In this document: positions 13,036 to 64,000 of the stretch, in pieces | Layout: each line of letters opens with the position of its first letter | Position numbering within the stretch: position 1 is the first letter of the stretch | Origin: Chondrosia reniformis | Lineage: Eukaryota > Porifera > Demospongiae > Chondrillida > Chondrillidae | DNA length: 64,000 nt | Direction: 5' to 3' | Assembly (NCBI GenBank): GCA_947172415.1 | Contig: OX359198.1 | Span: forward strand, 7,593,450 to 7,657,449 | Program-made: the position numbers and the translations under genes | The notes under the pieces: model-generated | Seen by the model: only the letters and a program-made list of their open reading frames with translations | What the model was told of the DNA's origin: nothing | Database searches by the model: none

Positions 13036-13757
13036 AACCTCTTGGCTGTATGCACATATAGCTATACAGTATATCCTGCTAGTTTTGTAAAATTTCAAAA
13101 AAGGATACCCGAGTTACTGTAGATCGAAAAATACCCTATTCTAAAGTATTGAAGATTCGCCAACCACAAGCGTTTTCATAGGCTATTACTTTATTTAAAT
13201 AGAAGATAAAACCTTATAATAGTAGGCCTACCTGGACACATCTCTATGGTGGTTGCGGTTCCCATAGAGGTTGGTAGCGCTTAGACTCTGAAGCTGTCTC
13301 CTAATCGGTTGGTGCCATAGAGACGTGCTCACCAATAATCCGGATTTCGGGGGGGTTCCACGTAATGTGGGATTGGCATCTGATATCTTAGGATTCATAT
13401 GAGTCGGCCATATCGAGAAGAACTGGTTCTTCTCACGCAAGTGACACCCAAAGCTCAACTCGGCAGAGCGTTACCACCGATCCCGGCCTCTGAGCGTCGT
13501 GGATGGTAGCGTTCGGTATGGTCCAATTTTTTTCCTTTGGAGTTTCTTTAGCAGTCGATTGACGATTTTTCACTTTAGCGACATCCATATATTATAATAT
13601 GGACAGATACTACTTCAAAACAATCAAGTATTACAGAGTGAATATCCATGTGTATTAAAATCTTTAAAAGCGTTCTCGTCATTCAAAATATACATATAAA
13701 AGTACCGTATTTTCAATATTCCCTTCTCTAGGTCGGCCATTTATATTATTACGAAAC
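13036..13757 (-). repeat. Inverted ~720-bp module, internal copy 2
   Basis: Nearly identical to copies 1 and 3. Its 76-codon frame lies at 13228-13458, which is 3681 bases from the copy 1 frame. The flanking satellite junctions are the same (gctagttttgtaaaatttc on the left, acgaaactcccgtacattaa on the right), so modules and monomers were amplified together. Confidence 0.9.
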
Positions 13758-15859: not shown

Positions 15860-16588
15860 AAGCTGAAACCTCTTGGCTGTATGCACATATAGCTATACAG
15901 TATATCCTGCTAGTTTTGTAAAATTTCAAAAAAGGATACCCGAGTTACTGTAGATCGAAAAATACCCTATTCTAAAGTATTGAAGATTCGCCAACCACAA
16001 GCGTTTTCATAGGCTATTACTTTATTTAAATAGAAGATAAAACCTTATAATAGTAGGCCTACCTGGACACATCTCTATGGTGGTTGCGGTTCCCATAGAG
16101 GTTGGTAGCGCTTAGACTCTGAAGCTGTCTCCTAATCGGTTGGTGCCATAGAGACGTGCTCACCAATAATCCGGATTTCGGGGGGGTTCCACGTAATGTG
16201 GGATTGGCATCTGATATCTTAGGATTCATATGAGTCGGCCATATCGAGAAGAACTGGTTCTTCTCACGCAAGTGACACCCAAAGCTCAACTCGGCAGAGC
16301 GTTACCACCGATCCCGGCCTCTGAGCGTCGTGGATGGTAGCGTTCGGTATGGTCCAATTTTTTTCCTTTGGAGTTTCTTTAGCAGTCGATTGACGATTTT
16401 TCACTTTAGCGACATCCATATATTATAATATGGACAGATACTACTTCAAAACAATCAAGTATTACAGAGTGAATATCCATGTGTATTAAAATCTTTAAAA
16501 GCGTTCTCGTCATTCAAAATATACATATAAAAGTACCGTATTTTCAATATTCCCTTCTCTAGGTCGGCCATTTATATTATTACGAAAC
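15860..16588 (-). repeat. Inverted ~720-bp module, internal copy 3
   Basis: The third inverted module has its 76-codon frame at 16059-16289, 2831 bases from copy 2. Sequence and junctions are essentially those of copies 1 and 2. Confidence 0.9.
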
Positions 16589-43479: not shown

Positions 43480-45085
43480 TAGATGTATGTCTATTCGCTA
43501 ATACATTAGAAATTAAAAATTAAAAGTAATACACTCTTTGGATTGTAACTCAGGCAAATAATGAGGTATGAAGCTGAAACTTGGTAGAAAGACTCTTAGG
43601 CATAATATGTTAATATCATAAGAGTTTGAGAAAGTTTGGACAAACCTAGCTTCAATCATAGATGTAAGTCTATTCACTAATACATTAGAAACATGGATTA
43701 AAAGGAATACAATCTTGGGACTGAATCTCAGGTAAATATAGAGATATGAATCTGAAACGTGGTCGAAATACTCTGACATATTATGTTAATATCATAAGAG
43801 TTTGAGAAAGTTTGTACAAATCCAACTTCAATCATAGATGTATGTATTTTCGCTAATACATTAGAAACATGGATTAAAAGTAATACACTCTTGGGATTGT
43901 AACTCAGGCAAATATTGAGGAATGAAGCTGAAACCTGGTAGAAAGACTCTTAGGCAGAGTATGTTAATATCATAAGAGTTTAAAAAAGTTTGGACAAACC
44001 TAACTTCAACCACAGATGTATGTCTATTCGCTAATACATTAGATATATGGTTTAAAGGTAATACAATCTCTTGGGACTGAATCTCCGGCAAACCTAAAAG
44101 TATGAAGCTGAAAGCTGGTAGAAAGCTTCTTAGGCATAGTATGTTTATATCATAAGAGTTTGAGAAAGTTTGGACAAACCTAACTTCAACCACAGATGTA
44201 TGTCTATTCGCTAATACATTAGATATATGGTTAAAAGATAACACACTCTTGGAACTGATTCTCAGGCAACTATTGAGGTATCAATCTCAAACTTGGATGA
44301 AATACTCTCAGGCAAAGTATATTAATATCCTAAGAGTTTGAGAAAGTTTGGACAAACTTAACTTCAACCACAGATGTATGTCTATTCGCTAATACATTAG
44401 ATATATGGTTTAAAGGTAACACACTCTTGGGACTGATTCTAAGGCAACTATTGAGGTATCGATCTCAAACTTGGTTCAAATGCTCTCTTGCATAGTATGT
44501 TAAAATCATAAGAGTTTGTAAAATGTTTGGACAAACCTAACTTCAACCACAGATGTATGTCAATTCGCTTATACATAAGATAGATGGTTTAAAGATGAGA
44601 CACTCTTGGGACTGATTCTCAGGCAACTATTGAGGTATCAATCTCAAACTTGGTTCAAATACTCTCTGGCATAGTATATTAATATCCTAAGAGTTTGAGA
44701 AAGTTTGGACAAACTTAACTTCAACCACAGATGTATGTCTATTCGCTAATACTATAGATATATGGTTTAAAGGTAACACACTCTTGGGACTGATTCTAAA
44801 ACAACTATTGAGGTATCGATCTCAAACTTGGTTGAAATACTCTCTTACATAGTATGTTAAAATCATAAGAGTTTGAGAAAGTTTGGACAAACCTAACTTC
44901 AACCACAGATGTATGTCAATTCGCTTATACATAAGATAGATGGTTTAAAGATGAGACACTCTTGGGACTGATTCTCAGGCAACTATTGAGGTATCAATCT
45001 CAAACTTGGTTCAAATACTCTCTGGCATAGTATATTAATATCCTAAGAGTTTGAGAAAGTTTGGACAAAGTTAACACACTCTTGG
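43480..45085 (+). repeat. 177-bp satellite array
   Basis: About nine tandem monomers of ~177-178 bases (landmark atgtatgtctattcgctaat recurs from ~43490 through ~44915). The conserved core is ggtatgaagctgaaacttgg followed ~45 bases on by ataagagtttgagaaagttt. Early monomers keep the gaagctgaaac core; later ones drift to caatctcaaacttggt. The layout parallels the 169-bp satellite at 8046-19480. Confidence 0.93.
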
Positions 45086-45169
45086 GACTGATTGTCGCTA
45101 TGGTTGGATATCAATTACAACACACCTTCCAGTGTTTAAGAGGATGCTGAAGAACCCAGGAATTTAAAC

Positions 45170-45590
45170 TCACTCTCCAACAATGAAGAGGACAGTGACT
45201 CTAATCCATTGCCCAACGATGAAGAGGACAGTGACTCTAATCCATTGCCCAACGATGAAAAGGACAGTGACTCTAATCCATTGCCCAACGATGAAGAGGA
45301 CAGTGACTCTAATCCATTGCCCAACGATGAAGAGGACAGTGACTCTAATCCATTGCCCAACGATGAAGAGGACAGTGACTCTAATCCATTGCCCAACGAT
45401 GAAGAGGACAGTGACTCTAATTCATTGCCCAACGATGAAGAGGACAGTGACTTCAACCTCTTGCCCGGCGATGAAGACGACAGTGACTTCAACCCTTTGC
45501 CCGGCGATGAAGACGACAGTGACTTCAACCCCTTGCCCGGCGATGAAGACGACAGTGACTTCAACCCCTTGCCCGACGATGAAGATAGTA
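45170..45590. repeat. 36-bp minisatellite with open frames
   Basis: About 11 copies of a 36-base unit (gatgaagaggacagtgactc then taatccattgcccaac), with a diverged right half (gacttcaaccccttgcccgg type). One plus frame is open and encodes an acidic 12-residue repeat (DEEDSDSNPLPN). That frame has no ATG in the array and a stop just upstream at ~45133. I cannot support a gene; a 3' exon of an unseen gene is possible. Confidence 0.85.
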
Positions 45591-45894
45591 AACTCCATAT
45601 AATACAAAGGATTGGTAGAGTTGTCCTTAGGATTTGGTAGTACATATAGTCTAGGGTTGCGCTATCTGGAAGGGTTGTGGTTGGGGCCTTAGGGCTTTTG
45701 GTCCAGGCAAGGATCATCGTTAGTGGGCAGAAAAGGGTTGTCCAAAGATGTGAGAAGGGATGAGCTATAGATTTTCCTGATTATCTTAAAAATCAATTAA
45801 TATAGACATATGGAAATTATGTTCTCCAAACGGCATTTTTTATGGGCTATCCAATGTAACCCATTTTGACCTAAATAACCTTCGGGGACCCAAC

Positions 45895-46437
45895 CCTGTA
45901 ACCCAAACACTAACCCTAACCCTGTCACTAACCCTAACCCTGTCACTAACCCTAACCCTGTCACTAACCCTAACCCTGTCACTAACCCTAACCCTGTCAC
46001 TAACCCTAACCCTGTCACTAACCCTAACCCTAACCCTGTCACTAACCCTAACCCTGTCACTAACCCTAACCCTGTCACTAACCCTAACCCTTTCACTAAC
46101 CCTAACCCTGTCACTAACCCTAACCCTGTCACTAACCCTAACCCTGTCACTAACCCTAACCCTGTCACTAACCCTAACCCTGTCACTAACCCTAACCCTG
46201 TCACTAACCCTGACCCTGTCACTAACCCTAACCCTGTCACTAACCCTAACCCTGTCACTAACCCTAACCCTGTCACTAAGCCTAACCCTGACACTAACCC
46301 TAACCCTGTCACTAACCCTAACCTGTCCCTAACCCTAACCCTAACCCTGTCACTAACCCTAACCCTGTCACTAACCCTAACCCTGTCACTAACCCTAACC
46401 CTGTCACTTAGGGTTAGGGTTAGGGTTAGGGTTAGGG
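45895..46437. repeat. Interstitial telomere-like variant array with strand switch
   Basis: About 27 copies of an 18-base variant of the telomeric C-strand (cctaaccctgtcactaac) end at ~46409, where the sequence switches to four to five TTAGGG units. The C-rich part therefore points the opposite way from the terminal telomere and the G-rich part the same way. It marks the inner border of the subtelomeric domain. Confidence 0.95.
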
Positions 46438-46511
46438 GGCAATTTTTATCATTTTAAGGAGTCACTGTATGAAGTCGCATTTAATAAACAACATTATAAG
46501 CTTGAAAATAC

Positions 46512-49500
46512 TTAAAATTTGTAGCGTATGTAATATAAGTTAGCTGTTTTGTCGTAGGTGTAGTCAATTGGGAACAGAATTTGTCCCAGCTTGACTTTCC
46601 TTGTCTGTCCTGCTGTAAACTTGTAGCCATTTTCTCCTAGGTGGTGCCTGAGTGGAGAAAGGATGATGTCTTCACCTTGAAGTCTGTACACTTTCCCGAA
46701 GGATCCATCTGTCTTGATAGCCACAAGTTCTCCAATGGTAGGTTCCAATGTTGTGTTTTCTATGATATCGTCTGCTGTAGCAGACCTCTTTGGTGAGCCC
46801 TCACAGTTGGAGTCACCTAATAAGCTTGTTTGGAGCATGGTTCTTGAAAATTCATGTGCCTCCTTTTGCTTGTCCATGCTTGTTCGTCTGTCATACTCTG
46901 ACAGTTGCTATGTATATGTGATAAGATAAATGTGACTCCGTTCAGCAGGTACTAAAGTAGTCAGCTTACCGTTTTTCTATTGTGCTTCATGGACCTTGCT
47001 AAAGATGTCTTAAGTTTCTCCGATAAGTCCATCTCCTCTAGATTAGTAACAAAACTTGACCTTATAGTGTTGATCCCCACATTTTGACCCGTGAATTGAT
47101 AAAAAATACCCTTTATATAGGTGGACCAGCTGCCAGAAGTAAAGGGACTTCCACCTGGTCTCTGCATGTAGAAGAACATTCAGAAATAAAGATGCAGAAG
47201 TGATTGTTGATCAGTTGACTTACCACAAAGAGGGATGAATTCTTTGGATCCGAGCAAAGGTAAGCCTTCCTGTTTAATATATGTTCCTTTAATTGTTGCA
47301 AAAGTAGGGGGTGATCATCCAGAGAGACCAGATCATCATTGTAAAACTTCTTTGTTTTGTAATCTGACAGGTAGAGAAAGGCGTGGTCCCCCTCCAGATC
47401 TATATGGAGCATGTTGGCCTTGGTGGCATGCTTTCCCAGCGATGGAAGCTTCTTGTGTACCTGTGTTTGCAGGGAGGAAGTGACGACAGACCTAGGTGAG
47501 TCAGACAGTGATAATTTAATACAATATACTTGTGCCTTTACCATAAAATGTAGGGACTGGTACTCTTTTGACCTCCTGGGAGGCAGGTCTGTATAGAATA
47601 GTAGTGCTAGAAATTTTTGTCCTAGCACAGCCTTCTTTATACCAGAGTCTTCACTAGCATATGCATTTTTGCATTGTTTCACCACCTGTAAAATTTCGTC
47701 CCTAAGTAGAAAGATTAGTATATAATTTTGTTATGTTATTTACAAACAACAGAGATACACTAATTAGAAACTTACCAATCAAGCCACATTCTCCGTGCCT
47801 TCAAAGCATCTCTGCTTTGATGAGCTGTAAGGGAACTAGATGCTTTCTTAAAGGATTCTGATTTTTTCTTAAGCCTTTTGTAGAAGGGTGTGTCATATGA
47901 AATGTCTTCTTCTGCTGCTAAGTAGCGTAGAATGTAGCAGAGATGGTCAATGTACGTCCCAATTGTGCTTCCCATTAGGTGCTTATCCTATATTGAGAGA
48001 TATTAGCAAAGATTGGGGCAATGGTGGTGGATCACACTGGCAAGGGAGGTGTTGAGGAAAATTACAAAGTGGTAGGATGGTATTCAGCATTTGACATGGT
48101 AAGACACATATATGTATCAGTGTTTACTAACCTCTAAAGAGTTAACAAAACTTTCCAGCATGTTACTATCCCTAGTATCTTCTAGACTGGGTTCTTGCTT
48201 AAAATTAACTGAAACATAATGTAGATAGTCTGTGCAAAATAAGGAAGTATAATGTTTTTCCTAATTAGGACTTGCATAGCAATTACTTACTCAAAGTGTG
48301 TAATTTGACCTTTTCCCAAGTCGATTCCTGGATACGGTCTCCATCCCTTTTCAAATTTGTGCTGCTTAGAAAGAACCTTTCTGTAGCTTTAATTTGCTTG
48401 GCCAATTGAGGGTGTTGACTGAGGTCAAGATAATTAGGCATTCTTCCTGGTTTTCCTTTTTTTACAGGGGGAACCATGTATTCATAGGTACTGTCGTCAT
48501 CATCCTCAGACTCAGAATCATCAAAAGATGAATCAGAGTGATATGAAGCAGATGATAGTCTGTTGACTACTGGAGGCTGAATATTTAACTCAGGTAAATC
48601 TGTAGCTGTAGTATATGTACCTTGTGGCTCCTTGGGTTGGGGAGGACTTAGGACGAGATTTGTGGCTGGGATGGATGTACCTTGTGGCTCCTTGGGTTGG
48701 GGAGGACTTAGGACGAGATTTGTGGCTGGGATGGATGTACCTTGTGGCTCCTTGTATTGGGGAGGACTTAGGACGAGACTTGTGGCTGGGATGGATGTAC
48801 CTTGTGGCTCCTTGGGTTGGGGAGGACTTAGGACGAGACTTGTGGCTGGGATGGATGTACCTTGTGGCTCCTTGTATTGGGGAGGACTTAGGACGAGACT
48901 TGTGGCTGGGATGGATGTACCTTGTGGCTCCTTGGGTTGGGGAGGACTTAGGACGAGATTTGTGGCTGGGATGGATGTACCTTGTGGCTCCTTGGGTTGG
49001 GGAGGACTTAGGACGAGACTTGTGGCTGGGATGGATGTACCTTGTGGCTCCTTGTATTGGGGAGGACTTAGGACGAGATTTGTGGCTGGGATGGATGTAC
49101 CTTGTGGCTCCTTGGGTTGGGGAGGACTTAGGACGAGACTTGTGGCTGGGATGGATGTACCTTGTGGCTCCTTGGGTTGGGGAGGACTTAGGATGAGATT
49201 TGTGGCTGGGATGGATGTACCTTGTGGCTCCTTGGGTTGGGGAGGACTTAGGACGAGATTTGTGGCTGGGATGGATGTACCTTGTGGCTCCTTGTATTGG
49301 GGAGGACTTAGGACGAGACTTGTGGCTGGGATGGATGTACCTTGTGGCTCCTTGGGTTGGGGAGGACTTAGGACGAGATTTGTGGCTGGGATGGATGTAC
49401 CTTGTGGCTCCTTGGGTTGGGGAGGACTTAGGACGAGATTTGTGGCTGGGATGGATGTACCTTGTGGCTCCTTGGGTTGGGGAGGACTTAGGACGAGACT

Positions 49501-49653
49501 TGTAGTTGGGATGGATGGTGGCCGCTTGACTCCTAGATGGTGAATCTCACCTGGTTTAGATGATGGTTCTGCTGGTGGGTTTGTGTTGTGTCCCTGTTCT
49601 TTCATCCTTTTAAACATTAGAAACTCCTGATACTCTTCTGGCGCAATATCCAT
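46512..49653 (-). CDS. Crypton-like tyrosine recombinase, copy A
   Basis: Exons in coding order are 49653-48291, 48208-48132, 47987-47776, 47701-47224, 47161-46970 and 46907-46512. All have GT-AG borders with agreeing phases, giving about 905 residues. Residues ~45-350 are a 20-residue Pro-rich repeat and an acidic patch (DDSESEDDDDSTYEY) follows. Exon 3 looks like a helical core-binding domain (GTYIDHLCYILRYLAAEE). The catalytic domain shows box I LLFYTDLPPRRSKEYQSL (Arg), the beta-hairpin lysine YLSDYKTKKFYNDD, box II NTIRSSF (Arg kept, usual His is Asn), and MKHNRKTQLSEYDRRT with the second His and the nucleophile Tyr nine residues apart. A beta-rich C-terminal tail follows. This pattern is that of Crypton/DIRS-type eukaryotic tyrosine recombinases. 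No reverse transcriptase is seen nearby, favouring Crypton. Activity is inferred from the kept residues. Confidence 0.82.
48615..49510. repeat. Coding 60-bp minisatellite in recombinase copy A
   Basis: Fifteen 60-base units encode the 20-residue repeat TSIPATNLVLSPPQPKEPQG (minus strand), with alternation of S/N and P/Y at fixed positions. The period is a multiple of three, so frames on the other strand also stay open. Confidence 0.95.
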
Positions 49654-49968
49654 GGTAGTCCTTTGTCTTTGAAGAAGTGAAAAGTTAAGGTGAGTCTGGT
49701 TTAACACTTTCATTTATATACTGAAACGTGCATAAAATTTATTCTGATGTAATATTTCCTTATATGGGTGCATTTTGCCCCTGCTGTTGGTCAATTAACA
49801 AGATTGAGCAGACAAATTCCACTGTTGGGCTTCAATGAGTTCATTAATATGGGAGCAGTGTTAATTGTAAAGGGACCAGACAGCATTCAGATTCAGATTA
49901 ACTGTATCCTAATACAATATTGGTTTAATTATCTAGTTATTATTATTGAGTCATTGGTCTAAAATTAA

Positions 49969-50799
49969 TTATGTCCTCCTTCTTTTGGAATGTAGAAGCT
50001 CTGGCCATGGTAGCTGAACTTCCCTGTCAAAGTTCTGGCCCCAATGCTCCCTAAAGTTGGTGAAGATGGAGTCCCGGAGTGTGGCTTGGCTCCAGGCAGC
50101 GTGGTTGTGAGGAAGCACAGTCCATGCAAGGGCTTGTATGAGTACATGAGACTTCCCCAGGTGTGAACTGCAGTGGTTGAAAGGTAAGGCAGCCAAAAGG
50201 ATTGTATTCCATAGTGTATGGTTAGTTCCTTGGGAAGGATAGGATTGATTTTAGGATGTCTGCTGTAATAGAAGGCCCACCATACGTAATTAATCCAGAT
50301 GTTGAGTGAGGGAGTCCTTCGAAGGAGCACACCCCAGGGTGCTGCTCCGTCCTGTACCAGTTTGCCCGGTACTCATAGACTGTCCTTGTAGGACAGGACG
50401 ATCTTTCAGGTGATGGGCTCAGGATGGCCTGGGGGGTCTCCAAATGAGTACATGTGGAGGATAACTGACTTACTGCCTGGGGTGGTTGAGTCACATCCTC
50501 GGGTGGTTGAGTCACATCCTCGGGTGGTTGAGTCACATCCTCGGGTGGTTGAGTCACATCCTCGGGTGGTTGAGTTACAGCCTGGTATGGTTGAGTCACA
50601 TCCTGGGGTGACCCTGGAAGAGGGAAGACTACTGTGATTGTCCCTTCCATTTTAATAAAATCACTCCAAGACTTACCAAGGAAAAGCTGTTCAGCTTGAC
50701 AAAGCAATAAGAAGACAGCCTCATAGTCCCCATCTATAGGGCTATGTCTTGTGACTAAAGCCTCCAGAGCACGAAGCTTGTCGCAGCACTGTTGTATTC
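49969..50799 (-). pseudogene. Second subtelomeric gene, copy A, frameshifted
   Basis: The minus-strand exon 50799-50677 (GIQQCCDKLRALEALVTRHS onward) ends with a clean GTAAGT donor in phase 1. The next exon starts at 50613, with a Pro-rich 8-residue repeat (VTQPPEDV) and then SPSPERSSCPTRTVYEYRANW. A second frame takes over near 50345 (GAAPWGVLLRRTPSLNIWIN, VWWAFYYSRHPKINPILPKE) and runs towards 49969. How the two frames join (an intron I cannot place, or a frameshift) is unresolved. Compared with copy B, copy A lacks one T in the run at ~50153 (gacttcccc versus gactttcccc). That breaks the downstream frame that in B ends REHWGQNFDREVQLPWPELL. I do not recognise the protein family. An upstream exon is expected beyond 50799. 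Confidence 0.55.
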
Positions 50800-50816
50800 C
50801 TACATTGTTGGTTTGT

Positions 50817-51020
50817 TAATATGTAATTACTTATGTATATATTTATTAACATACATTCTTTTTTCAATTTAGGTTTTGTGGCCAAACAGCTAAGGATGAG
50901 CTATTATTAATTTAAATTTTATGTAATTACTTATGTATATATTTATTAACATTCATTCTTTTTTCAATTTAGGTTTTGTGGCTAAACAGCTAAGGATGAA
51001 CTATTATTAATTTAATTTTT
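50817..51020. repeat. Tandem ~103-bp AT-rich pair, unit A
   Basis: Two copies of a segment running from tgtaattacttatgtatata through ttcaatttaggttttgtggc to the ctattattaattta end, with few differences. Each contains a plus-strand acceptor-like ttttttcaatttag. The region from 51021 to 51652 is AT-rich with no gene seen. The same pair is present in unit B at 59211-59412. Confidence 0.8.
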
Positions 51021-51652
51021 TTATTGTAAATATACTAATAATTATTATGGCTTCGTATATGCATTGCAAAAATGGATGTGCGGGCGATAAAAACATGGTG
51101 TTCCGTATCTAAAATCCGGAAGTGACTTAAAAGTATTTAGCCATTAACTTATCTGTTTTTCAGTACGCAAGAGGCCAAACATTTACATAGGACTATTATA
51201 TACAGCTCCAGCTTATTAATTTTGTAGTTTTATGTCTGTAAAATAGCAGTTGAAATGACACTAATTATATAATAAAATTACAACGTGTCTTGGATTTTCT
51301 CGGATACTGCGTATATTACCATTACAATCGCCCTAATGAAAAATAAACTAAACCTGCTCAAGAAACTAACCAGACATAACTGAGAAACACTATTGATACT
51401 TGTGAACTAATAGAAGACTCTTGAAAAACGTCGAAAGAATGATGCAATTGCAAACAAACTACGCATTTCAGATACATAGGCTACATTAAGTTATAGTCGG
51501 CCAAATGCAACCATTGAACAATTAAAGCAGGCTTAGCACACAAACCCACGTCTTACACATAAAGTAAAAGTGAAATATTGGCTGTATATTAAATTTTTGT
51601 ACCAAAACCATTCAATGAACAGGACGGTCATACATATTAATCATTAAAAAAA

Positions 51653-52869
51653 GCCAGGGGCCCACAAATCACACCCGTGCCTATTTGGCACCCATGCCAC
51701 CCCTTCAAAATGGGCATCATTGGAAAGAGCTCCTCGAGAGCTTTCGATTGATGCCCATTTTGCCCTGCTACATCCCTTCCTCACGGGAGTGGGGGAGGGA
51801 TGTAGCAAAAAAGATATACAGGCTCGCCAAGAAAAGGCAATTAGTGGAAACATTTTCCTGAGAAACTCCCCCACGCTAGCATGCTGAAACCTTGTCAGTC
51901 CATCGTTTGGATCAGGACTCAACCATTTCAAGTCCTAGGTCCATTTTGTGGAGCCTGTCAATTTTTTTGAGCCCCTCGGAATGGAAGACCCCCTGTTCAG
52001 CTATGCCAGGGGCCCACAAATCACACCCGTGCCTATTTGGCACCCATGCCACCCCTTCAAAATGGGCATCATTGGAAAGAGCTCCTCGAGAGCTTTCGAT
52101 TGATGCCCATTTTGCCCTGCTACATCCCTTCCTCACGGGAGTGGGGGGAGGGATGTAGCAAAAAAGATATACAGGCTCGCCAAGAAAAGGCAATTAGTGG
52201 AAACATTTTCCTGAGAAACTCCCCCACGCTAGCATGCTGAAACCTTGTCAGTCCATCGTTTGGATCAGGACTCAACCATTTCAAGTCCTAGGTCCATTTT
52301 GTGGAGCCTGTCAATTTTTTTGAGCCCCTCGGAATGGAAGACCCCCTGTTCAGCTATGCCAGGGGCCCACAAATCACACCCGTGCCTATTTGGCACCCAT
52401 GCCACCCATTCAAAATGGGCATCATTGGAAAGAGCTCCTCGAGAGCTTTCGATTGATGCCCATTTTGCCCTGCTACATCCCTTCCTCACGGGAGTGGGGG
52501 GAGGGATGTAGCAAAAAAGATATACAGGCTCGCCAAGAAAAGGCAATTAGTGGAAACATTTTCCTGAGAAACTCCCCCACGCTAGCATGCTGAAACCTTG
52601 TCAGTCCATCGTTTGGATCAGGACTCAACCATTTCAAGTCCTAGGTCCATTTTGTGGAGCCTGTCAATTTTTTGAGCCCCTCGGAATGGAAGACCCCCTG
52701 TTCAGCTATGCCAGGGGCCCACAAATCACACCCGTGCCTATTTGGCACCCATGCCACCCCTTCAAAATGGGCATCATTGGAAAGAGCTCCTCGAGAGCTT
52801 TCGATTGATGCCCATTTTGCCCTGCTACATCCCTTCCTCACGGGAGTGGGGGGAGGGATGTAGCAAAAA
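51653..52869. repeat. 353-bp tandem repeat with paired hairpins, unit A (about 3.5 copies)
   Basis: Copies start at 51653, 52005, 52358 and 52710; the last is truncated. Each contains two adjacent inverted repeats: aaaatgggcatca...tgatgcccatttt (51707-51719 with 51749-51761) enclosing a gaaagagctc/gagagctttc stem, and ctacatccct...agggatgtag (51768-51777 with 51796-51805). Open frames of 60-95 codons in both strands are shadows of the repeat. Confidence 0.93.
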
Positions 52870-53723
52870 TTTTAGTCTATATGATATGTTATGGTTTACT
52901 TCTATTGCTAATTTGCGTGGGTATTTGCGGTTTAGGAATTAAGTTATTCATTTATATTTTATTGAACTTTTGTATAGCGTATGCAGGAACAATTAATTTA
53001 GCATGTAGTTTAAAGCTAGTGACAAGTGTTCCTTAGTGATTGAGGAAATTTAAAGCTCTCTGTTTTCTGTTAGTGGTGTTCTTTTAGCTCTTAGTTGAGA
53101 CCTAAAAATTGGAAAATTTCGAAAAGTATATCTTTACTTGTGGAAGTCGTATCGACTCCAAATAAACTTTATTGGGCATACTTTTGGAGTAAGAATGATG
53201 AGCTAAAAAACTAGAAGTGTATAGCTTTGGGAAAGGCATAAAACACATGGGGTGTTTTTGGAATTTTGAATTTACCGCAGTTTTGAACAGGAGCCCTGTT
53301 CAAGCCTATACTTTAAGTATTGTTGCGGTTAGATATTTTGCTAGGAATGCATGTTATAACTGCAGCAAACAATGACTAGGAACAGTAGTACATTATATAT
53401 CCATAATTCAATGCTTGGTACGGGCGTGACAGGAATATTAGACTCGTTACCCTTTTCTATCCAAAGAAACATGCTTTCCAAGGTGGCCTACTCGGAAGAG
53501 GACATAAAAGGGTATCGATAAAGGCCGTGTTGAAGTATTTCCATTCCGATGAACGTATCGTTCCTAGTACAGGCCTAACCAAGCTAAATATACGTAATTC
53601 ATCGATCTTATTTGTAAAAAGAACGTTTAATTCTACGATTCCTTTAAAATAATAAGTACGTATATATATATATATTATATATCACTTCCGTGTGGGGATT
53701 GCGCAACAGAAGTAGTCACGAGA

Positions 53724-53777
53724 ATGGCGGGAACTAAAGAAAGGAGAGGTGTGAACGGCAGCTGGAGCTTGTTAAAT
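53724..53777 (+). other. Orphan promoter and first exon facing the telomere, unit A
   Basis: An ETS-like CACTTCCG at ~53692 precedes ATGGCGGG. An open 18-codon exon (MAGTKERRGVNGSWSLLN) then ends exactly at a GTAAGT donor. It looks like the 5' end of a normal gene, but only ~240 bases follow before telomeric repeats and I find no matching downstream exon. Confidence 0.5.
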
Positions 53778-54020
53778 GTAAGTTATAGCAACTATAATCC
53801 ACAATATTTGCCTTGATTATGATTTTTTAGCAACCCTAAATTCTATAGATCGATAGATTTGGGTTGATTTACTAATTTTTTTACATTATTGGGATAAATT
53901 TGGCCTCAAACTAATTATTATGTTTTTCATTTGTACTTAATTTTAAAAACAAGTAAAGGTATAAAAGGATTAGAAAGGGTTAATTATTTGTACTATTACC
54001 GTTTAAAATTCAGGATTAAT

Positions 54021-54129
54021 TAGGGTTAGGGTTAGGGTTAGGGTTAGGGTTAGGGTTAGGGTTAGGGTTAGGGTTAGGGTTAGGGTTAGGGTTAGGGTTA
54101 GGGTTAGGGTTAGGGTTAGGGTTAGGGTT
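54021..54129 (+). repeat. Interstitial TTAGGG tract between units A and B
   Basis: About 18 perfect TTAGGG repeats in the same orientation as the terminal telomere, placed exactly at the right edge of unit A. Confidence 0.97.
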
Positions 54130-54695
54130 ACAGGGATGTCCCCGAGGGGTCATAGTGTCAAATCCTAATAAATTATATATCATTGGATAGCACTCTTCAA
54201 GATCTATCTTCTAACCTAAAAAAACCCTAAAAAAGTTAATTGTTTTTCGAGATAATCGAGAAAAAACAATCAACTTTTTCAATGCTTTTATCCAATACGA
54301 AACCATAAAATTCACTTATTTATGAATTGTAATCCTACCCGAAAATTTAAGGAACTTTTCCGAGACCACGCCCACTAATTAGTTTCAATCAATTAGCTTA
54401 GAACGTAAGCCCCACCCCTTATTGGTTTCGGAGAATCCACCCACTAATTAGTTTCAATCAATTAACTAAGAACCTTATCCCCGCCCCTTTATTAGTTTCG
54501 GAGAACCCGCCCACTAATTAGGGTCAGGGTTGGGTTAGGGTCAGGGTTACAGGGTGTTGCCCAGACATCACCATATGAGATATGGGTATCATCGGAAAGC
54601 TCTCGGTGAGGTGAGTTGATTGGTGAAAAGAAACCCTAAAAAATCCTATTAGTTTTTGAGAAATTTTAGGTTGAATAGGTGTGAAAATTTAATCA
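54130..54695. other. Spacer between units A and B
   Basis: Present once in the window. It contains a palindrome (gttaattgtttttcgag with its complement at ~54235-54275). It also has about 2.5 copies of a ~72-bp unit (ccactaattagtttcaatca) and two halves that each start with an atatcattgga- or gtatcatcgga-type motif. No coding potential. Confidence 0.7.
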
Positions 54696-54830
54696 GGGTT
54701 AGGGTCAGGGTTAGGGTCAGGGTTAGGGTCAGGGTTAGGGTCAGGGTTAGGGTCAGGGTTAGGGTCAGGGTTAGGGTCAGGGTTAGGGTCAGGGTTAGGG
54801 TCAGGGTTAGGGTCAGGGTTAGGGTCAGGG
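54696..54830 (+). repeat. Variant telomeric array (GGGTTAGGGTCA)n
   Basis: About 11 copies of a 12-base variant in which every second telomeric unit is GGGTCA, directly abutting the left edge of unit B. The RVRVRV frame across it is an artefact. Confidence 0.97.
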
Positions 54831-54904
54831 GGCAATTTTTATCATTTTAAGGAGTCACTGTATAAAGTCGCATTTAATAAACAACATTATAAGCTTGAAA
54901 ATAC

Positions 54905-57900
54905 TTAAAATTTGTAGCGTATGTAATATAAGTTAGCTGTTTTGTCGTAGGTGTAGTCAATTGGGAACAGAATTTGTCCCAGCTTGACTTTCCTTGTCTG
55001 TCCTGCTGTAAACTTGTAGCCATTTTCTCCTAGGTGGTGCCTGAGTGGAGAAAGGATGATGTCTTCACCTTGAAGTCTGTACACTTTCCCGAAGGATCCA
55101 TCTGTCTTGATAGCCACAAGTTCTCCAATGGTAGGTTCCAATGTTGTGTTTTCTATGATGTCGTCTGCTGTAGCAGACCTCTTTGGTGAGCCCTCACAGT
55201 TTGAGTCACCTAATAAGCTTGTTTGGAGCATGGTTCTTGAAAATTCATGTGCCTCCTTTTGCTTGTCCATGCTTGTTCGTCTGTCATACTCTGACAGTTG
55301 CTATGTATATGTGATAAGATAAATGTGACTCCGTTCAGCAGGTACTAAAGTAGTCAGCTTACCGTTTTTCTATTGTGCTTCATGGACCTTGCTAAAGATG
55401 TCTTAAGTTTCTCCGATAAGTCCATCTCCTCTAGATTAGTAACAAAACTTGACCTTATAGTGTTGATCCCCACATTTTGACCCGTGAATTGATAAAAAAT
55501 ACCCTTTATATAGGTGGACCAGCTGCCAGAAGTAAAGGGACTTCCACCTGGTCTCTGCATGTAGAAGAACATTCAGAAATAAAGATGCAGAAGTGATTGT
55601 TGATCAGTTGACTTACCACAAAGAGGGATGAATTCTTTGGATCCGAGCAAAGGTAAGCCTTCCTGTTTAATATATGTTCCTTTAATTGTTGCAAAAGTAG
55701 GGGGTGATCATCCAGAGAGACCAGATCATCATTGTAAAACTTCTTTGTTTTGTAATCTGACAGGTAGAGAAAGGCGTGGTCCCCCTCCAGATCTATATGG
55801 AGCATGTTGGCCTTGGTGGCATGCTTTCCCAGCGATGGAAGCTTCTTGTGTACCTGTGTTTGCAGGGAGGAAGTGACGACAGACCTAGGTGAGTCAGACA
55901 GTGATAATTTAATACAATATACTTGTGCCTTTACCATAAAATGTAGGGACTGGTACTCTTTTGACCTCCTGGGAGGCAGGTCTGTATAGAATAGTAGTGC
56001 TAGAAATTTTTGTCCTAGCACAGCCTTCTTTATACCAGAGTCTTCACTAGCATATGCATTTTTGCATTGTTTCACCACCTGTAAAATTTCGTCCCTAAGT
56101 AGAAAGATTAGTATATAATTTTGTTATGTTATTTACAAACAACAGAGATACACTAATTAGAAACTTACCAATCAAGCCACATTCTCCGTGCCTTCAAAGC
56201 ATCTCTGCTTTGATGAGCTGTAAGGGAACTAGATGCTTTCTTAAAGGATTCTGATTTTTTCTTAAGCCTTTTGTAGAAGGGTGTGTCATATGAAATGTCT
56301 TCTTCTGCTGCTAAGTAGCGTAGAATGTAGCAGAGATGGTCAATGTACGTCCCAATTGTGCTTCCCATTAGGTGCTTATCCTATATTGAGAGATATTAGC
56401 AAAGATTGGGGCAATGGTGGTGGATCACACTGGCAAGGGAGGTGTTGAGGAAAATTACAAAGTGGTAGGATGGTATTCAGCATTTGACATGGTAAGACAC
56501 ATATATGTATCAGTGTTTACTAACCTCTAAAGAGTTAACAAAACTTTCCAGCATGTTACTATCCCTAGTATCTTCTAGACTGGGTTCTTGCTTAAAATTA
56601 ACTGAAACATAATGTAGATAGTCTGTGCAAAATAAGGAAGTATAATGTTTTTCCTAATTAGGACTTGCATAGCAATTACTTACTCAAAGTGTGTAATTTG
56701 ACCTTTTCCCAAGTCGATTCCTGGATACGGTCTCCATCCCTTTTCAAATTTGTGCTGCTTAGAAAGAACCTTTCTGTAGCTTTAATTTGCTTGGCCAATT
56801 GAGGGTGTTGACTGAGGTCAAGATAATTAGGCATTCTTCCTGGTTTTCCTTTTTTTACAGGGGGAACCATGTATTCATAGGTACTGTCGTCATCATCCTC
56901 AGACTCAGAATCATCAAAAGATGAATCAGAGTGATATGAAGCAGATGATAGTCTGTTGACTACTGGAGGCTGAATATTTAACTCAGGTAAATCTGTAGCT
57001 GTAGTATATGTACCTTGTGGCTCCTTGGGTTGGGGAGGACTTAGGACGAGATTTGTGGCTGGGATGGATGTACCTTGTGGCTCCTTGGGTTGGGGAGGAC
57101 TTAGGACGAGATTTGTGGCTGGGATGGATGTACCTTGTGGCTCCTTGTATTGGGGAGGACTTAGGACGAGACTTGTGGCTGGGATGGATGTACCTTGTGG
57201 CTCCTTGGGTTGGGGAGGACTTAGGACGAGACTTGTGGCTGGGATGGATGTACCTTGTGGCTCCTTGTATTGGGGAGGACTTAGGACGAGACTTGTGGCT
57301 GGGATGGATGTACCTTGTGGCTCCTTGGGTTGGGGAGGACTTAGGACGAGATTTGTGGCTGGGATGGATGTACCTTGTGGCTCCTTGGGTTGGGGAGGAC
57401 TTAGTACGAGACTTGTGGCTGGGATGGATGTACCTTGTGGCTCCTTGTATTGGGGAGGACTTAGGACGAGATTTGTGGCTGGGATGGATGTACCTTGTGG
57501 CTCCTTGGGTTGGGGAGGACTTAGGACGAGACTTGTGGCTGGGATGGATGTACCTTGTGGCTCCTTGGGTTGGGGAGGACTTAGGATGAGATTTGTGGCT
57601 GGGATGGATGTACCTTGTGGCTCCTTGGGTTGGGGAGGACTTAGGACGAGATTTGTGGCTGGGATGGATGTACCTTGTGGCTCCTTGTATTGGGGAGGAC
57701 TTAGGACGAGATTTGTGGCTGGGATGGATGTACCTTGTGGCTCCTTGGGTTGGGGAGGACTTAGGACGAGATTTGTGGCTGGGATGGATGTACCTTGTGG
57801 CTCCTTGGGTTGGGGAGGACTTAGGACGAGATTTGTGGCTGGGATGGATGTACCTTGTGGCTCCTTGGGTTGGGGAGGACTTAGGACGAGACTTGTAGTT

Positions 57901-58046
57901 GGGATGGATGGTGGCCGCTTGACTCCTAGATGGTGAATCTCACCTGGTTTAGATGATGGTTCTGCTGGTGGGTTTGTGTTGTGTCCCTGTTCTTTCATCC
58001 TTTTAAACATTAGAAACTCCTGATACTCTTCTGGCGCAATATCCAT
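54905..58046 (-). CDS. Crypton-like tyrosine recombinase, copy B
   Basis: Exons in coding order are 58046-56684, 56601-56525, 56380-56169, 56094-55617, 55554-55363 and 55300-54905, each displaced by exactly 8393 bases from copy A and of equal length. All the catalytic residues described for copy A (PPRR arginine, YKT lysine, IRSSF arginine, KHNR histidine, SEYDRR tyrosine) are unchanged. The few differences lie in the N-terminal Pro-rich repeat (N for S at fixed variable positions) and are otherwise silent. Both copies are intact, so neither is obviously decayed. Confidence 0.82.
57008..57903. repeat. Coding 60-bp minisatellite in recombinase copy B
   Basis: Fifteen 60-base units, the same number and nearly the same variant order as in copy A. 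This fixes the duplication of the whole unit as later than the repeat expansion. Confidence 0.95.
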
Positions 58047-58361
58047 GGTAGTCCTTTGTCTTTGAAGAAGTGAAAAGTTAAGGTGAGTCTGGTTTAACAC
58101 TTTCATTTATATACTGAAACGTGCATAAAATTTATTCTGATGTAATATTTCCTTATATGGGTGCATTTTGCCCCTGCTGTTGGTCAATTAACAAGATTGA
58201 GCAGACAAATTCCACTGTTGGGCTTCAATGAGTTCATTAATATGGGAGCAGTGTTAATTGTAAAGGGACCAGACAACATTCAGATTCAGATTAACTGTAT
58301 CCTAATACAATATTGGTTTAATTATCTAGTTATTATTATTGAGTCATTGGTCTAAAATTAA

Positions 58362-59193
58362 TTATGTCCTCCTTCTTTTGGAATGTAGAAGCTCTGGCCA
58401 TGGTAGCTGAACTTCCCTGTCAAAGTTCTGGCCCCAATGCTCCCTAAAGTTGGTGAAGATGGAGTCCCGGAGTGTGGCTTGGCTCCAGGCAGCGTGGTTG
58501 TGAGGAAGCACAGTCCATGCAAGGGCTTGTATGAGTACATGAGACTTTCCCCAGGTGTGAACTGCAGTGGTTGAAAGGTAAGGCAGCCAAAAGGATTGTA
58601 TTCCATAGTGTATGGTTAGTTCCTTGGGAAGGATAGGATTGATTTTAGGATGTCTGCTGTAATAGAAGGCCCACCATACGTAATTAATCCAGATGTTGAG
58701 TGAGGGAGTCCTTCGAAGGAGCACACCCCAGGGTGCTGCTCCGTCCTGTACCAGTTTGCCCGGTACTCATAGACTGTCCTTGTAGGACAGGACGATCTTT
58801 CAGGTGATGGGCTCAGGATGGCCTGGGGGGTCTCCAAATGAGTACATGTGGAGGATAACTGACTTACTGCCTGGGGTGGTTGAGTCACATCCTCGGGTGG
58901 TTGAGTCACATCCTCGGGTGGTTGAGTCACATCCTCGGGTGGTTGAGTCACATCCTCGGGTGGTTGAGTTACAGCCTGGTATGGTTGAGTCACATCCTGG
59001 GGTGACCCTGGAAGAGGGAAGACTACTGTGATTGTCCCTTCCATTTTAATAAAATCACTCCAAGACTTACCAAGGAAAAGCTGTTCAGCTTGACAAAGCA
59101 ATAAGAAGACAGCCTCATAGTCCCCATCTATAGGGCTATGTCTTGTGACTAAAGCCTCCAGAGCACGAAGCTTGTCGCAGCACTGTTGTATTC
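58362..59193 (-). CDS. Second subtelomeric gene, copy B (frame intact)
   Basis: Same layout as copy A: exon 59193-59071 with a phase-1 GTAAGT donor, then the VTQPPEDV repeat exon from 59007, then the frame with APWGVLLRRTPSLNIWIN. Here the run of T at ~58547 is one longer, and the last frame continues WGKSHVLIQALAWTVLPHNH and REHWGQNFDREVQLPWPELL to a stop at 58362. That is a more protein-like end than the shifted frame of A. The join between the second exon and the last frame (~58740) is not resolved. No known domain is recognised. It lies upstream of the recombinase on the same strand, so it could be a companion protein of the same element. Confidence 0.5.
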
Positions 59194-60046
59194 CTACATT
59201 GTTGGTTTGTTAATATGTAATTACTTATGTATATATTTATTAACATACATTCTTTTTTCAATTTAGGTTTTGTGGCCAAACAGCTAAGGATGAGCTATTA
59301 TTAATTTAAATTTTATGTAATTACTTATGTATATATTTATTAACATTCATTCTTTTTTCAATTTAGGTTTTGTGGCTAAACAGCTAAGGATGAACTATTA
59401 TTAATTTAATTTTTTTATTGTAAATATACTAATAATTATTATGGCTTCGTATATGCATTGCAAAAATGGATGTGCGGGCGATAAAAACATGGTGTTCCGT
59501 ATCTAAAATCCGGAAGTGACTTAAAAGTATTTAGCCATTAACTTATCTGTTTTTCAGTACGCAAGAGGCCAAACATTTACATAGGACTATTATATACAGC
59601 TCCAGCTTATTAATTTTGTAGTTTTATGTCTGTAAAATAGCAGTTGAAATGACACTAATTATATAATAAAATTACAACGTGTCTTGGATTTTCTCGGATA
59701 CTGCGTATATTACCATTACAATCGCCCTAATGAAAAATAAACTAAACCTGCTCAAGAAACTAACCAGACATAACTGAGAAACACTATTGATACTTGTGAA
59801 CTAATAGAAGACTCTTGAAAAACGTCGAAAGAATGATGCAATTGCAAACAAACTACGCATTTCAGATACATAGGCTACATTAAGTTATAGTCGGCCAAAT
59901 GCAACCATTGAACAATTAAAGCAGGCTTAGCACACAAACCCACGTCTTACACATAAAGTAAAAGTGAAATATTGGCTGTATATTAAATTTTTGTACCAAA
60001 ACCATTCAATGAACAGGACGGTCATACATATTAATCATTAAAAAAA

Positions 60047-60559
60047 GCCAGGGGCCCACAAATCACACCCGTGCCTATTTGGCACCCATGCCACCCCTTC
60101 AAAATGGGCATCATTGGAAAGAGCTCCTCGAGAGCTTTCGATTGATGCCCATTTTGTGCTGCTACATCCCTTCCTCACGGGAGTGGGGGGAGGGATGTAG
60201 CAAAAAAGATATACAGGCTCGCCAAGAAAAGGCAATTAGTGGAAACATTTTCCTGAGAAACTCCCCCACGCTAGCATGCTGAAACCTTGTCAGTCCATCG
60301 TTTGGATCAGGACTCAACCATTTCAAGTCCTAGGTCCATTTTGTGGAGCCTGTCAATTTTTTTGAGCCCCTCGGAATGGAAGACCCCCTGTTCAGCTATG
60401 CCAGGGGCCCACAAATCACACCCGTGCCTATTTGGCACCCATGCCACCCCTTCAAAATGGGCATCATTGGAAAGAGCTCCTCGAGAGCTTTCGATTGATG
60501 CCCATTTTGCCCTGCTACATCCCTTCCTCACGGGAGTGGGGGGAGGGATGTAGCAAAAA
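60047..60559. repeat. 353-bp tandem repeat with paired hairpins, unit B (about 1.5 copies)
   Basis: Copies start at 60047 and 60400 with the same borders as in unit A. The first copy has ttttgtgctgc in place of ttttgccctgc. The copy-number difference (four cores in A, two in B) accounts for the length difference between the units. Confidence 0.93.
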
Positions 60560-61413
60560 TTTTAGTCTATATGATATGTTATGGTTTACTTCTATTGCTA
60601 ATTTGCGTGGGTATTTGCGGTTTAGGAATTAAGTTATTCATTTATATTTTATTGAACTTTTGTATAGCGTATGCAGGAACAATTAATTGAGCATGTAGCT
60701 TAAAGCTAGTGACAAGTGTTCCTTAGTGATTGAGGAAATTTAAAGCTCTCTTTTTTCTGTTAGTGGTGTTCTTTTAGCTCTTAGTTGAGACCTAAAAATT
60801 GGAAAATTTCGAAAAGTATATCTTTACTTGTGGAAGTCGTATCGACTCCAAATAAACTTTATTGGGCATACTTTTGGAGTAAGAATGATGAGCTAAAAAA
60901 CTAGAAGTGTATAGCTTTGGGAAAGGCATAAAACACATGGGGTGTTTTTGGAATTTTGAATTTACCGCAGTTTTGAACAGGAGCCCTGTTCAAGCCTATA
61001 CTTTAAGTATTGTTGCGGTTAGATATTTTGCTAGGAATGCATGTTATAACTGCAGCAAACAATGACTAGGAACAGTATTACATTATATATCCATAATTCA
61101 ATGCTTGGTACGGGCGTGACAGGAATATTAGACTCGTTACCCTTTTCTATCCAAAGAAACATGCTTTCCAAGGTGGCCTACTCGGAAGAGGACATAAAAG
61201 GGTATCGATAAAGGCCGTGTTGAAGTATTTCCATTCCGATGAACGTATCGTTCCTAGTACAGGCCTAACCAAGCTAAATATACGTAATTCATCGATCTTA
61301 TTTGTAAAAAGAACGTTTAATTCTACGATTCCTTTAAAATAATAAGTACGTATATATATATATATTATATATCACTTCCGTGTGGGGATTGCGCAACAGA
61401 AGTAGTCACGAGA

Positions 61414-61467
61414 ATGGCGGGAACTAAAGAAAGGAGAGGTGTGAACGGCAGCTGGAGCTTGTTAAAT
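61414..61467 (+). other. Orphan promoter and first exon facing the telomere, unit B
   Basis: Identical to the copy at 53724-53777. It sits about 240 bases from the terminal telomere, so no downstream exon can exist on this chromosome end. Confidence 0.5.
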
Positions 61468-61707
61468 GTAAGTTATAGCAACTATAATCCACAATATTTG
61501 CCTTGATTATGATTTTTTAGCAACCCTAAATTCTATAGATCGATAGATTTGGGTTGATTTACTAATTTTTTTACATTATTGGGATAAATTTGGCCTCAAA
61601 CTAATTATTGTTTTTCATTTGTACTTAATTTTAAAAACAAGTAAAGGTATAAAAGGATTAGAAAGGGTTAATTATTTGTACTATTACCGTTTAAAATTCA
61701 GGATTAA

Positions 61708-64000
61708 TTAGGGTTAGGGTTAGGGTTAGGGTTAGGGTTAGGGTTAGGGTTAGGGTTAGGGTTAGGGTTAGGGTTAGGGTTAGGGTTAGGGTTAGGGTTA
61801 GGGTTAGGGTTAGGGTTAGGGTTAGGGTTAGGGTTAGGGTTAGGGTTAGGGTTAGGGTTAGGGTTAGGGTTAGGGTTAGGGTTAGGGTTAGGGTTAGGGT
61901 TAGGGTTAGGGTTAGGGTTAGGGTTAGGGTTAGGGTTAGGGTTAGGGTTAGGGTTAGGGTTAGGGTTAGGGTTAGGGTTAGGGTTAGGGTTAGGGTTAGG
62001 GTTAGGGTTAGGGTTAGGGTTAGGGTTAGGGTTAGGGTTAGGGTTAGGGTTAGGGTTAGGGTTAGGGTTAGGGTTAGGGTTAGGGTTAGGGTTAGGGTTA
62101 GGGTTAGGGTTAGGGTTAGGGTTAGGGTTAGGGTTAGGGTTAGGGTTAGGGTTAGGGTTAGGGTTAGGGTTAGGGTTAGGGTTAGGGTTAGGGTTAGGGT
62201 TAGGGTTAGGGTTAGGGTTAGGGTTAGGGTTAGGGTTAGGGTTAGGGTTAGGGTTAGGGTTAGGGTTAGGGTTAGGGTTAGGGTTAGGGTTAGGGTTAGG
62301 GTTAGGGTTAGGGTTAGGGTTAGGGTTAGGGTTAGGGTTAGGGTTAGGGTTAGGGTTAGGGTTAGGGTTAGGGTTAGGGTTAGGGTTAGGGTTAGGGTTA
62401 GGGTTAGGGTTAGGGTTAGGGTTAGGGTTAGGGTTAGGGTTAGGGTTAGGGTTAGGGTTAGGGTTAGGGTTAGGGTTAGGGTTAGGGTTAGGGTTAGGGT
62501 TAGGGTTAGGGTTAGGGTTAGGGTTAGGGTTAGGGTTAGGGTTAGGGTTAGGGTTAGGGTTAGGGTTAGGGTTAGGGTTAGGGTTAGGGTTAGGGTTAGG
62601 GTTAGGGTTAGGGTTAGGGTTAGGGTTAGGGTTAGGGTTAGGGTTAGGGTTAGGGTTAGGGTTAGGGTTAGGGTTAGGGTTAGGGTTAGGGTTAGGGTTA
62701 GGGTTAGGGTTAGGGTTAGGGTTAGGGTTAGGGTTAGGGTTAGGGTTAGGGTTAGGGTTAGGGTTAGGGTTAGGGTTAGGGTTAGGGTTAGGGTTAGGGT
62801 TAGGGTTAGGGTTAGGGTTAGGGTTAGGGTTAGGGTTAGGGTTAGGGTTAGGGTTAGGGTTAGGGTTAGGGTTAGGGTTAGGGTTAGGGTTAGGGTTAGG
62901 GTTAGGGTTAGGGTTAGGGTTAGGGTTAGGGTTAGGGTTAGGGTTAGGGTTAGGGTTAGGGTTAGGGTTAGGGTTAGGGTTAGGGTTAGGGTTAGGGTTA
63001 GGGTTAGGGTTAGGGTTAGGGTTAGGGTTAGGGTTAGGGTTAGGGTTAGGGTTAGGGTTAGGGTTAGGGTTAGGGTTAGGGTTAGGGTTAGGGTTAGGGT
63101 TAGGGTTAGGGTTAGGGTTAGGGTTAGGGTTAGGGTTAGGGTTAGGGTTAGGGTTAGGGTTAGGGTTAGGGTTAGGGTTAGGGTTAGGGTTAGGGTTAGG
63201 GTTAGGGTTAGGGTTAGGGTTAGGGTTAGGGTTAGGGTTAGGGTTAGGGTTAGGGTTAGGGTTAGGGTTAGGGTTAGGGTTAGGGTTAGGGTTAGGGTTA
63301 GGGTTAGGGTTAGGGTTAGGGTTAGGGTTAGGGTTAGGGTTAGGGTTAGGGTTAGGGTTAGGGTTAGGGTTAGGGTTAGGGTTAGGGTTAGGGTTAGGGT
63401 TAGGGTTAGGGTTAGGGTTAGGGTTAGGGTTAGGGTTAGGGTTAGGGTTAGGGTTAGGGTTAGGGTTAGGGTTAGGGTTAGGGTTAGGGTTAGGGTTAGG
63501 GTTAGGGTTAGGGTTAGGGTTAGGGTTAGGGTTAGGGTTAGGGTTAGGGTTAGGGTTAGGGGTTAGGGTTAGGGTTAGGGTTAGGGTTAGGGTTAGGGTA
63601 GGGTTAGGGTTAGGGTTAGGGTTAGGGTTAGGTTAGGGTTAGGTTAGGGTTAGGTTAGGTTAGGGTTAGGTTAGGGTTAGGGTTAGGGTTAGGGTTAGGG
63701 TTAGGGTTAGGGTTAGGGTTAGGGTTAGGGTTAGGGTTAGGGTTGGTTAGGGTTAGGGTTAGGGTTTGGGTTAGGGTTAGGGTTAGGGTTAGGGTTAGGG
63801 TTAGGTTAGGGTTAGGGTTAGGGTTAGGGTTAGGGTTAGGGTTAGGGGTTAGGGTTAGGGTTAGGTGAGGGTTAGGGTTAGGGTTAGGTTAGGGTTAGGG
63901 TTAGGGTTAGGGTTAGGGTTAGGGTTAGGGTTAGGGTTAGGGTTAGGTTAGGGTTAGAGGGTTAGGTTAGGGTTAGGTTAGGGTTAGGGTTAGGGTTAGG
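61708..64000 (+). repeat. Terminal telomere (TTAGGG)n
   Basis: About 380 TTAGGG repeats run to the window edge with the G-rich strand 5'->3', as expected for a right chromosome end. The stretch to ~63555 is essentially perfect. From ~63560 onward variants (TTAGG, TTAGGGG, TTTGGG, TTAGAGGG, TTAGGTGAGGG) become frequent. Confidence 0.98.

Follow-up and report, generated by a model that had tools for sequence, protein, structure and literature searches.

A telomere-bordered unit with a putative tyrosine recombinase gene at chromosome ends of the sponge Chondrosia reniformis

The window analysed here covers the final 64 kb on the right-hand side of chromosome 10 (C10:7593450-7657449) in the sponge Chondrosia reniformis, whose genome consists of 14 chromosomes and a mitochondrial genome, for a total of 117.37 Mb (PMC12181767). 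The contig stops at window base 64000, within the telomere. Just inside it lie two copies of a unit that is bordered by telomeric repeats and carries an intron-containing gene for a putative tyrosine recombinase, together with a second gene. Across the genome, the unit measures 7-9 kb, with a full form of 8.6 kb (8561 bp in the C1R copy).

Two copies of the unit and their genes

The two copies are in direct orientation. Copy 1 has 7582 bp (46438..54019) and copy 2 has 6877 bp (54831..61707). They are 99.8% identical across 5757 bp and 99.4% identical across 1774 bp, with 17 substitutions in these two aligned blocks. The order in the window is an inverted degenerate array, (TTAGGG)5 (46408..46437, plus strand), copy 1, (TTAGGG)18 (54020..54130, plus strand), a subtelomeric spacer starting with TTACAGGGATGTCC (54131..54692), (TCAGGGTTAGGG)11.5 (54693..54830, plus strand), copy 2, and the terminal TTAGGG tract of the chromosome (61708..64000, plus strand). 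The initial annotation had described a unit of about 7 kb repeated in tandem, with telomeric repeats on both sides of each copy. Two near-identical direct copies with TTAGGG borders are indeed found, but they are not strictly tandem, as a tract, the spacer of about 560 bp and an array separate them, and the left border of copy 2 is a TCAGGG/TTAGGG array. The unit begins with GGCAATTTTTATC and ends with CAGGATTAA. No terminal inverted repeats joining both ends were found among the 25 longest of 50 inverted repeats. A 353-bp tandem repeat is present in 3.4 copies in copy 1 (51653..52869) and in 1.5 copies in copy 2; in the C5L copy, more than 5 kb of it was read. The inverted array in front of copy 1 (45908-46408) is made of degenerate telomere-like 18-bp repeats placed head-to-head with the TTAGGG repeats, an arrangement also seen at C14L.

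Each copy contains, on the minus strand, one gene of identical plan, with seven exons, GT-AG introns and an open frame of 878 amino acids (46512..49653 in copy 1; 54905..58046 in copy 2). In copy 1, the exons are 49653-48291, 48208-48132, 47987-47776, 47701-47542, 47460-47224, 47161-46970 and 46907-46512. Exon 1 contains a 60-bp tandem repeat corresponding to a 20-amino-acid repeat (48615..49517, minus strand). The protein carries the motifs PPRRSKEY, DYKTKK, NTIRSSFVT, MKH and SEYDRR, the order and spacing of which resemble those of a tyrosine recombinase. The residues follow the order R-K-NxxR-H-Y, with N in place of the first H of HxxR, and the distance from H to Y is 9, as in XerD. Read from these motifs, the product of the seven-exon gene is tentatively a tyrosine recombinase.

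Homology searches give this assignment no support, which counts against a model of insertion by the recombinase. With the 417-amino-acid C-terminal part, a Pfam search (E ≤10) returned only PF06847 at E 0.15. A PHROGs search at the same threshold gave only a PHROG at 0.82, and searches of the PDB gave only 7wek at 1.4 (phmmer) and 3l9a at 0.047 (profile). In hhalign comparisons with other recombinases (five interior frames of the same genome, out of eight fetched, and XerD), the score was 14.3, inside the range of 100 shuffles, which reached 24.6; with three alignment rows, it was 16.9 (E 0.19). No relatives were detected in pattern-based scans of viral_contigs (two scans) and genome_contigs (one scan), and tblastn against phages gave 12 weak records, the best at E 0.4. 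Thus, of the apparently intact multi-exon tyrosine recombinase first proposed, the open gene stands in both copies, whereas its family is given by motifs, with Pfam, PHROGs, PDB and profile comparisons unsupportive. Unlike the unit, 27 other Phage_integrase matches in the genome lie away from contig ends. Most of the tyrosine-recombinase frames L072-L079, located off chromosome ends, finish with HSFRIGAATT...LGRW, and these frames look DIRS-like.

The last part of exon 1, excluding the repeat, and exons 2-7 were compared in ten copies. Donors and acceptors are GT and AG at all six introns in 10/10 copies, and the frame is open and collinear in eight of them. The C3L gene is open with small offsetting deletions summing to 18 bases, the stretch between them being possibly out of frame, while the C2R gene has a frameshift and premature stops. 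Among the ten copies, synonymous variants number 13 and nonsynonymous variants 15, with p 0.0025 if rates are equal and 0.028 if kappa is 4. Leaving out C2R gives 9 and 8, and leaving out both C2R and C3L gives 4 and 3 (p 0.04-0.10). Some constraint on the gene is therefore suggested by these variants. Per site, diversity is 8/579 in noncoding sequence, 15/~1246 for nonsynonymous and 13/~335 for synonymous changes; as the noncoding value is near the nonsynonymous one and below the synonymous one, the constraint would be weak, which tells against insertion by the recombinase.

The second gene, also on the minus strand, is an 822-codon open frame at C1R. The initial annotation had counted it as a gene in each window copy. 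There, it is broken by a deletion of about 1.6 kb relative to C1R, at about 50237 in copy 1 (49965..50815) and identically in copy 2 (58362..59209), leaving a 197-codon frame. Its tentative SET-like look was judged by the SET-N, NHS and post-core motifs. In hhalign, the C1R protein scored 24.5 against SET versus at most 19.9 in 100 shuffles, the N-terminal part alone being aligned, with a probability of 9.6%. In an hmmsearch for SET, the C1R protein was absent from the list while shuffled controls were present. The Pfam scan of the 822-amino-acid frame gave no match, an AlphaFold2 model from three alignment rows had a pLDDT of 31.5, and no relatives appeared in the viral_contigs scan. The second gene may tentatively be called SET-like, a weak reading. 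Between C1R and C2R, it shows 5 synonymous and 16 nonsynonymous differences, indicating no constraint.

Distribution over chromosome ends and insertion register

The unit and its two borders were sought across the whole assembly, as the initial annotation had proposed; DNA match counts given here are lower bounds. The recombinase-side search gave 13 matches, made up of 10 near-full copies, the left-truncated C7R_A, an 86-base end fragment at C11L and a 142-base interior piece at C11 3.63 Mb. All ten near-full copies are terminal and all ten have the same orientation. The right-end search gave 12 matches, each near a contig end. Recombinase exons are found at nine of the 28 ends (C1R, C2R, C3L, C5L, C7R, C10R, C11R, C14L and C14R), and fragments at C2L and C11L bring the ends marked by the unit to 11/28. 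Exact patterns of the left and right ends matched 12 and 9 times, respectively, and no match lies more than 26 kb from a contig end. The 12 left-end matches include an inverted stub at C14L; the C2R left end falls outside the exact pattern and was read directly. A chance origin of these patterns is excluded, reversed patterns giving 0 matches in 117 Mb.

No near-identical interior copy was found in the genome, so that the objection foreseen in the initial annotation, a mostly interior unit, fails. Interior sequences are only diverged pieces, namely the C11 piece, a relic of the second gene at C2 3.14 Mb and, at the protein level, relics of the recombinase at C5 4.10 Mb and at C14 2.31 Mb. The C2 relic is at 83-93% in aligned pieces, a divergence indicating that interior pieces are not recent donors. 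A piggyBac-like transposase frame lies in the first 649 bases of L066 and adjoins the C14 recombinase relic.

Because the exact end patterns contain telomere letters, the insertion register was established with queries devoid of telomere sequence and by reading the junctions. On the left, 11 matches begin at unit base 1, and AGGG directly precedes the unit in 11/11 junctions. On the right, nine matches extend to the last unit base and are followed by TTAG in 9/9 cases and by TTAGGG in eight, the C2L right end having TTAG and then other sequence. The register of the unit is GGG^TTA, at one constant position. The left flanks themselves are diverse: non-telomeric at C3L, satellite-like at C2R, and otherwise assorted degenerate telomere arrays, each with AGGG and then GGCAATT. 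Across the chromosome ends, the subtelomeres hold varied degenerate telomere arrays (TTAGGGTCAGGG, CTAGGG, TTTATGGGCTAGGG, TTAGTGACAGCG, TATAGGTAGG).

Copies alike to the last base are found beside unlike flanks. Across about 2170 bases, no difference separates C5L from C7R_B or C14L from C14R, and the left flanks are unlike in both pairs; over the same length, 3 substitutions separate C10R_1 from C10R_2. Near the junction, the left flanks diverge, with some subtelomeric modules in common, most clearly between C10R_2 and C7R_B. Since copies free of differences over about 2.2 kb stand beside unlike flanks, the spread was recent, and this suggests that the unit moved recently from one chromosome end to another.

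Relation to known telomeric elements

Yeast Y' elements are protein-coding units of chromosome ends that encode a helicase; where they stand in tandem, telomere tracts separate the copies. The initial annotation had likened the sponge unit to them, and this likeness holds in an animal: near-full copies are terminal and oriented in one way with respect to the telomere (10/10, two inverted fragments excepted), and at C10R and C7R the copies are separated by short telomere tracts. The sponge unit differs by carrying a recombinase-type gene instead of a helicase gene. No helicase was matched by Pfam in seven window frames, the 417-amino-acid recombinase part and the 822-amino-acid C1R frame, to which the scan was confined.

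Tyrosine-recombinase elements directed to telomeres are already known. In Leishmania braziliensis, TATE elements are reported to form tandem clusters at GGG^TTA of the telomeric hexamers (PMC6681497). The sponge unit occupies the same relative position of the hexamer, in a constant register. However, TATE belongs to a protist and is ranked with tyrosine-recombinase retrotransposons in that report (PMC6681497). In the sponge unit, no reverse transcriptase was matched by Pfam in seven window frames (frames of at least 60 amino acids were considered for listing) and the C1R frame, the scan being limited to these. In crustaceans, endogenous nimaviruses are described as having telomere-specific tyrosine recombinases, with large viral genomes inserted in (TAACC)n (PMC10871703). 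In these viruses, a tyrosine recombinase family is linked to insertion in an animal telomere repeat, so that a recombinase-bearing telomeric unit is less unusual among animals than was first proposed. The nimavirus genomes are large, unlike the sponge unit, and their recombinases typically have C2H2 and SAM-like domains (PMC10871703); the likeness to the sponge protein is one of description. In view of these precedents, the sponge unit appears as a variant of telomere-targeting recombinase elements.

Two other systems deserve comparison. Cryptons are tyrosine-recombinase DNA elements, and some of them, such as CryptonV, are reported to insert specifically in microsatellites (PMC8869645). The sponge unit would resemble them as a tyrosine-recombinase-type element in simple repeats but differs in that its putative recombinase has no Pfam match of weight (PF06847, as above), the comparison being made at the level of description and not with Crypton sequences directly. 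No telomere target for Cryptons is mentioned in the passages of PMC3212892 considered. In Caenorhabditis elegans, TALT is a block lying between telomere-like sequences which reaches all chromosomes in telomerase-deleted survivors (PMC4595603). Similarly, telomere-like repeats of uniform orientation border the sponge unit at several ends. In contrast to TALT, which is host sequence amplified in such survivors, it has genes of its own and resides in an animal with long terminal TTAGGG tracts. TALT stems from an internal donor region; the interior relatives of the sponge unit are diverged pieces. No report of a sponge unit that pairs a telomeric position with a recombinase was seen among the papers listed in searches of PMC, which did not extend to Repbase. 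The sponge unit joins two bodies of literature, one on telomere-targeting recombinase elements and the other on telomere backup of the Y' or TALT type. It offers an example from nature, in a wild animal, of a gene-bearing unit at many ends whose copies are so alike that the events are recent and the junctions readable.

Insertion by the recombinase or passive copying

In our leading model, to which we give about an even chance, the recombinase encoded by the element inserted it at GGG^TTA, and recombination of the Y' or TALT kind later copied and truncated it. The unit would be a telomere-resident mobile element. Its intron-containing gene is of putative tyrosine-recombinase type, and the full 8.6-kb form has a second long gene as well. 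The recombinase would first insert the element, once excised, among telomeric repeats at GGG^TTA, always in the same orientation, giving TTAGGG-type repeats at both borders in the register reported for TATE. Copies at chromosome ends would then be multiplied, truncated and reshuffled by recombination seeded at TTAGGG or by break-induced copying, as happens with Y' and TALT. Restriction to ends, a single orientation and register, the gene collinear in 8/10 copies and flanks that part at the same base support this model; the identity of the recombinase, excision, circles and the route of the recent copies are the parts that we infer. The TATE-like register and the telomere-specific recombinases of crustaceans raise the prior for insertion by a recombinase. 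A narrower version is rather unlikely: an animal tyrosine-recombinase DNA transposon whose only target is TTAGGG at GGG^TTA, having a chromatin-type companion gene and doubling as a template for rebuilding ends in the manner of Y' or TALT. If true, a selfish element and a telomere backup would be combined.

Passive recombination with a passenger gene is a close second, nearly as likely. Here, eroded ends would invade the short TTAGGG stretches preceding a unit on another chromosome and copy that unit onto themselves, as in the TALT precedent of telomerase-deleted C. elegans survivors (PMC4595603), and the recombinase would be a passenger or a fossil of the arrival. End restriction and orientation are explained equally by both processes. 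Several features of the junctions speak for passive copying and against placement by the recombinase. In 11/11 junctions, the left flank has at most five consecutive TTAGGG; if insertion struck at random within hundreds of repeats, long runs would be expected there. This limit concerns consecutive perfect TTAGGG, longer degenerate arrays preceding the unit at C10R_2, C7R_B, C11R and C5L. At C2L, the left end is kept for 22 bases and then gives way to terminal-type TTAGGG repeats; at C14L, an inverted stub of 6-7 bases is followed by a few TTAGGG and then by an array of variant repeats; and at C1R, the right side of the unit reads CAGGATTAATTAGGGGGCGGGTTAGGG, perhaps a 3-base stub or a mere variant repeat. 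Aborted copying explains such stubs at least as well. C7R_A is left-truncated and joined to TTAGGG. To the right of C10R_1, C7R_A, C11R and C1R, a TTAGGG tract is followed by a like spacer start (4/8 copies), the other four (C10R_2, C3L, C7R_B and C14R) having long TTAGGG. The first variant repeat on that side is TTTGGG in both C11R and C7R_B, and in C1R it comes after GGCGGG. The interval between C7R_A and C7R_B resembles that of C10R, with 11 TTAGGG. Two inverted fragments, the left-end stub at C14L and a right-end piece at C2R, depart from the common orientation, and units lacking the full second gene have spread as well. Taken together, the shortness of the left tracts, the stubs and the distal blocks in common raise the probability of recombination.

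On the other side, some junctions share TTAGGG alone (C2R) or TTAGGGTCAGGG (C3L), which is scant for homologous invasion. The left end is complete in 10/11 recombinase-bearing copies, and the gene is collinear in 8/10 with weak signs of constraint. The TATE register and the mostly open gene favor a recombinase that drives the spread, and the very short tracts on the left, the left-end stubs and the common distal blocks favor one that is carried along. The sponge unit makes the choice between driver and passenger testable.

The unit could also be a remnant of a telomere-integrating DNA virus, cut down to its integration module, and viruses with telomere-specific tyrosine recombinases are reported in crustaceans (PMC10871703). 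With two genes recognised in 7-9 kb, neither having a relative in the viral_contigs scans, and with constant ends in most copies favoring a complete unit, this origin is very improbable. An assembly artefact, by collapse or duplication of telomere-adjacent sequence, might be suspected from C5L, where the unit continues into a long 353-bp array and the contig begins inside such repeats (first 1200 bases without telomere repeats), or from C1R, where the sequence, followed up to 18 bases short of the contig end, finishes in subtelomeric sequence; it is hardly credible given that the copies at nine ends have different substitutions, types of deletion, numbers of repeats and left flanks, and given a reported assembly quality value (QV) of 69.8 (PMC12181767). 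Duplication of copy 2 by assembly, in particular, is excluded by the 17 substitutions, the repeat number, the unlike left flanks of the two window copies and the presence of copies at eight other ends.

Other features were noted beside the unit. The C2R unit lacks its right end, and other repeats come after it. Upstream in the window, long arrays of a 169-bp satellite occupy 8072-19444, and further arrays, with units of 23 bp and 178 bp, are found at 37983-39988 and 43481-45069, respectively. Finally, an open frame with acidic 12-amino-acid repeats (PNDEEDSDSNPL) and a period of 36 bp lies at 45140-45640.

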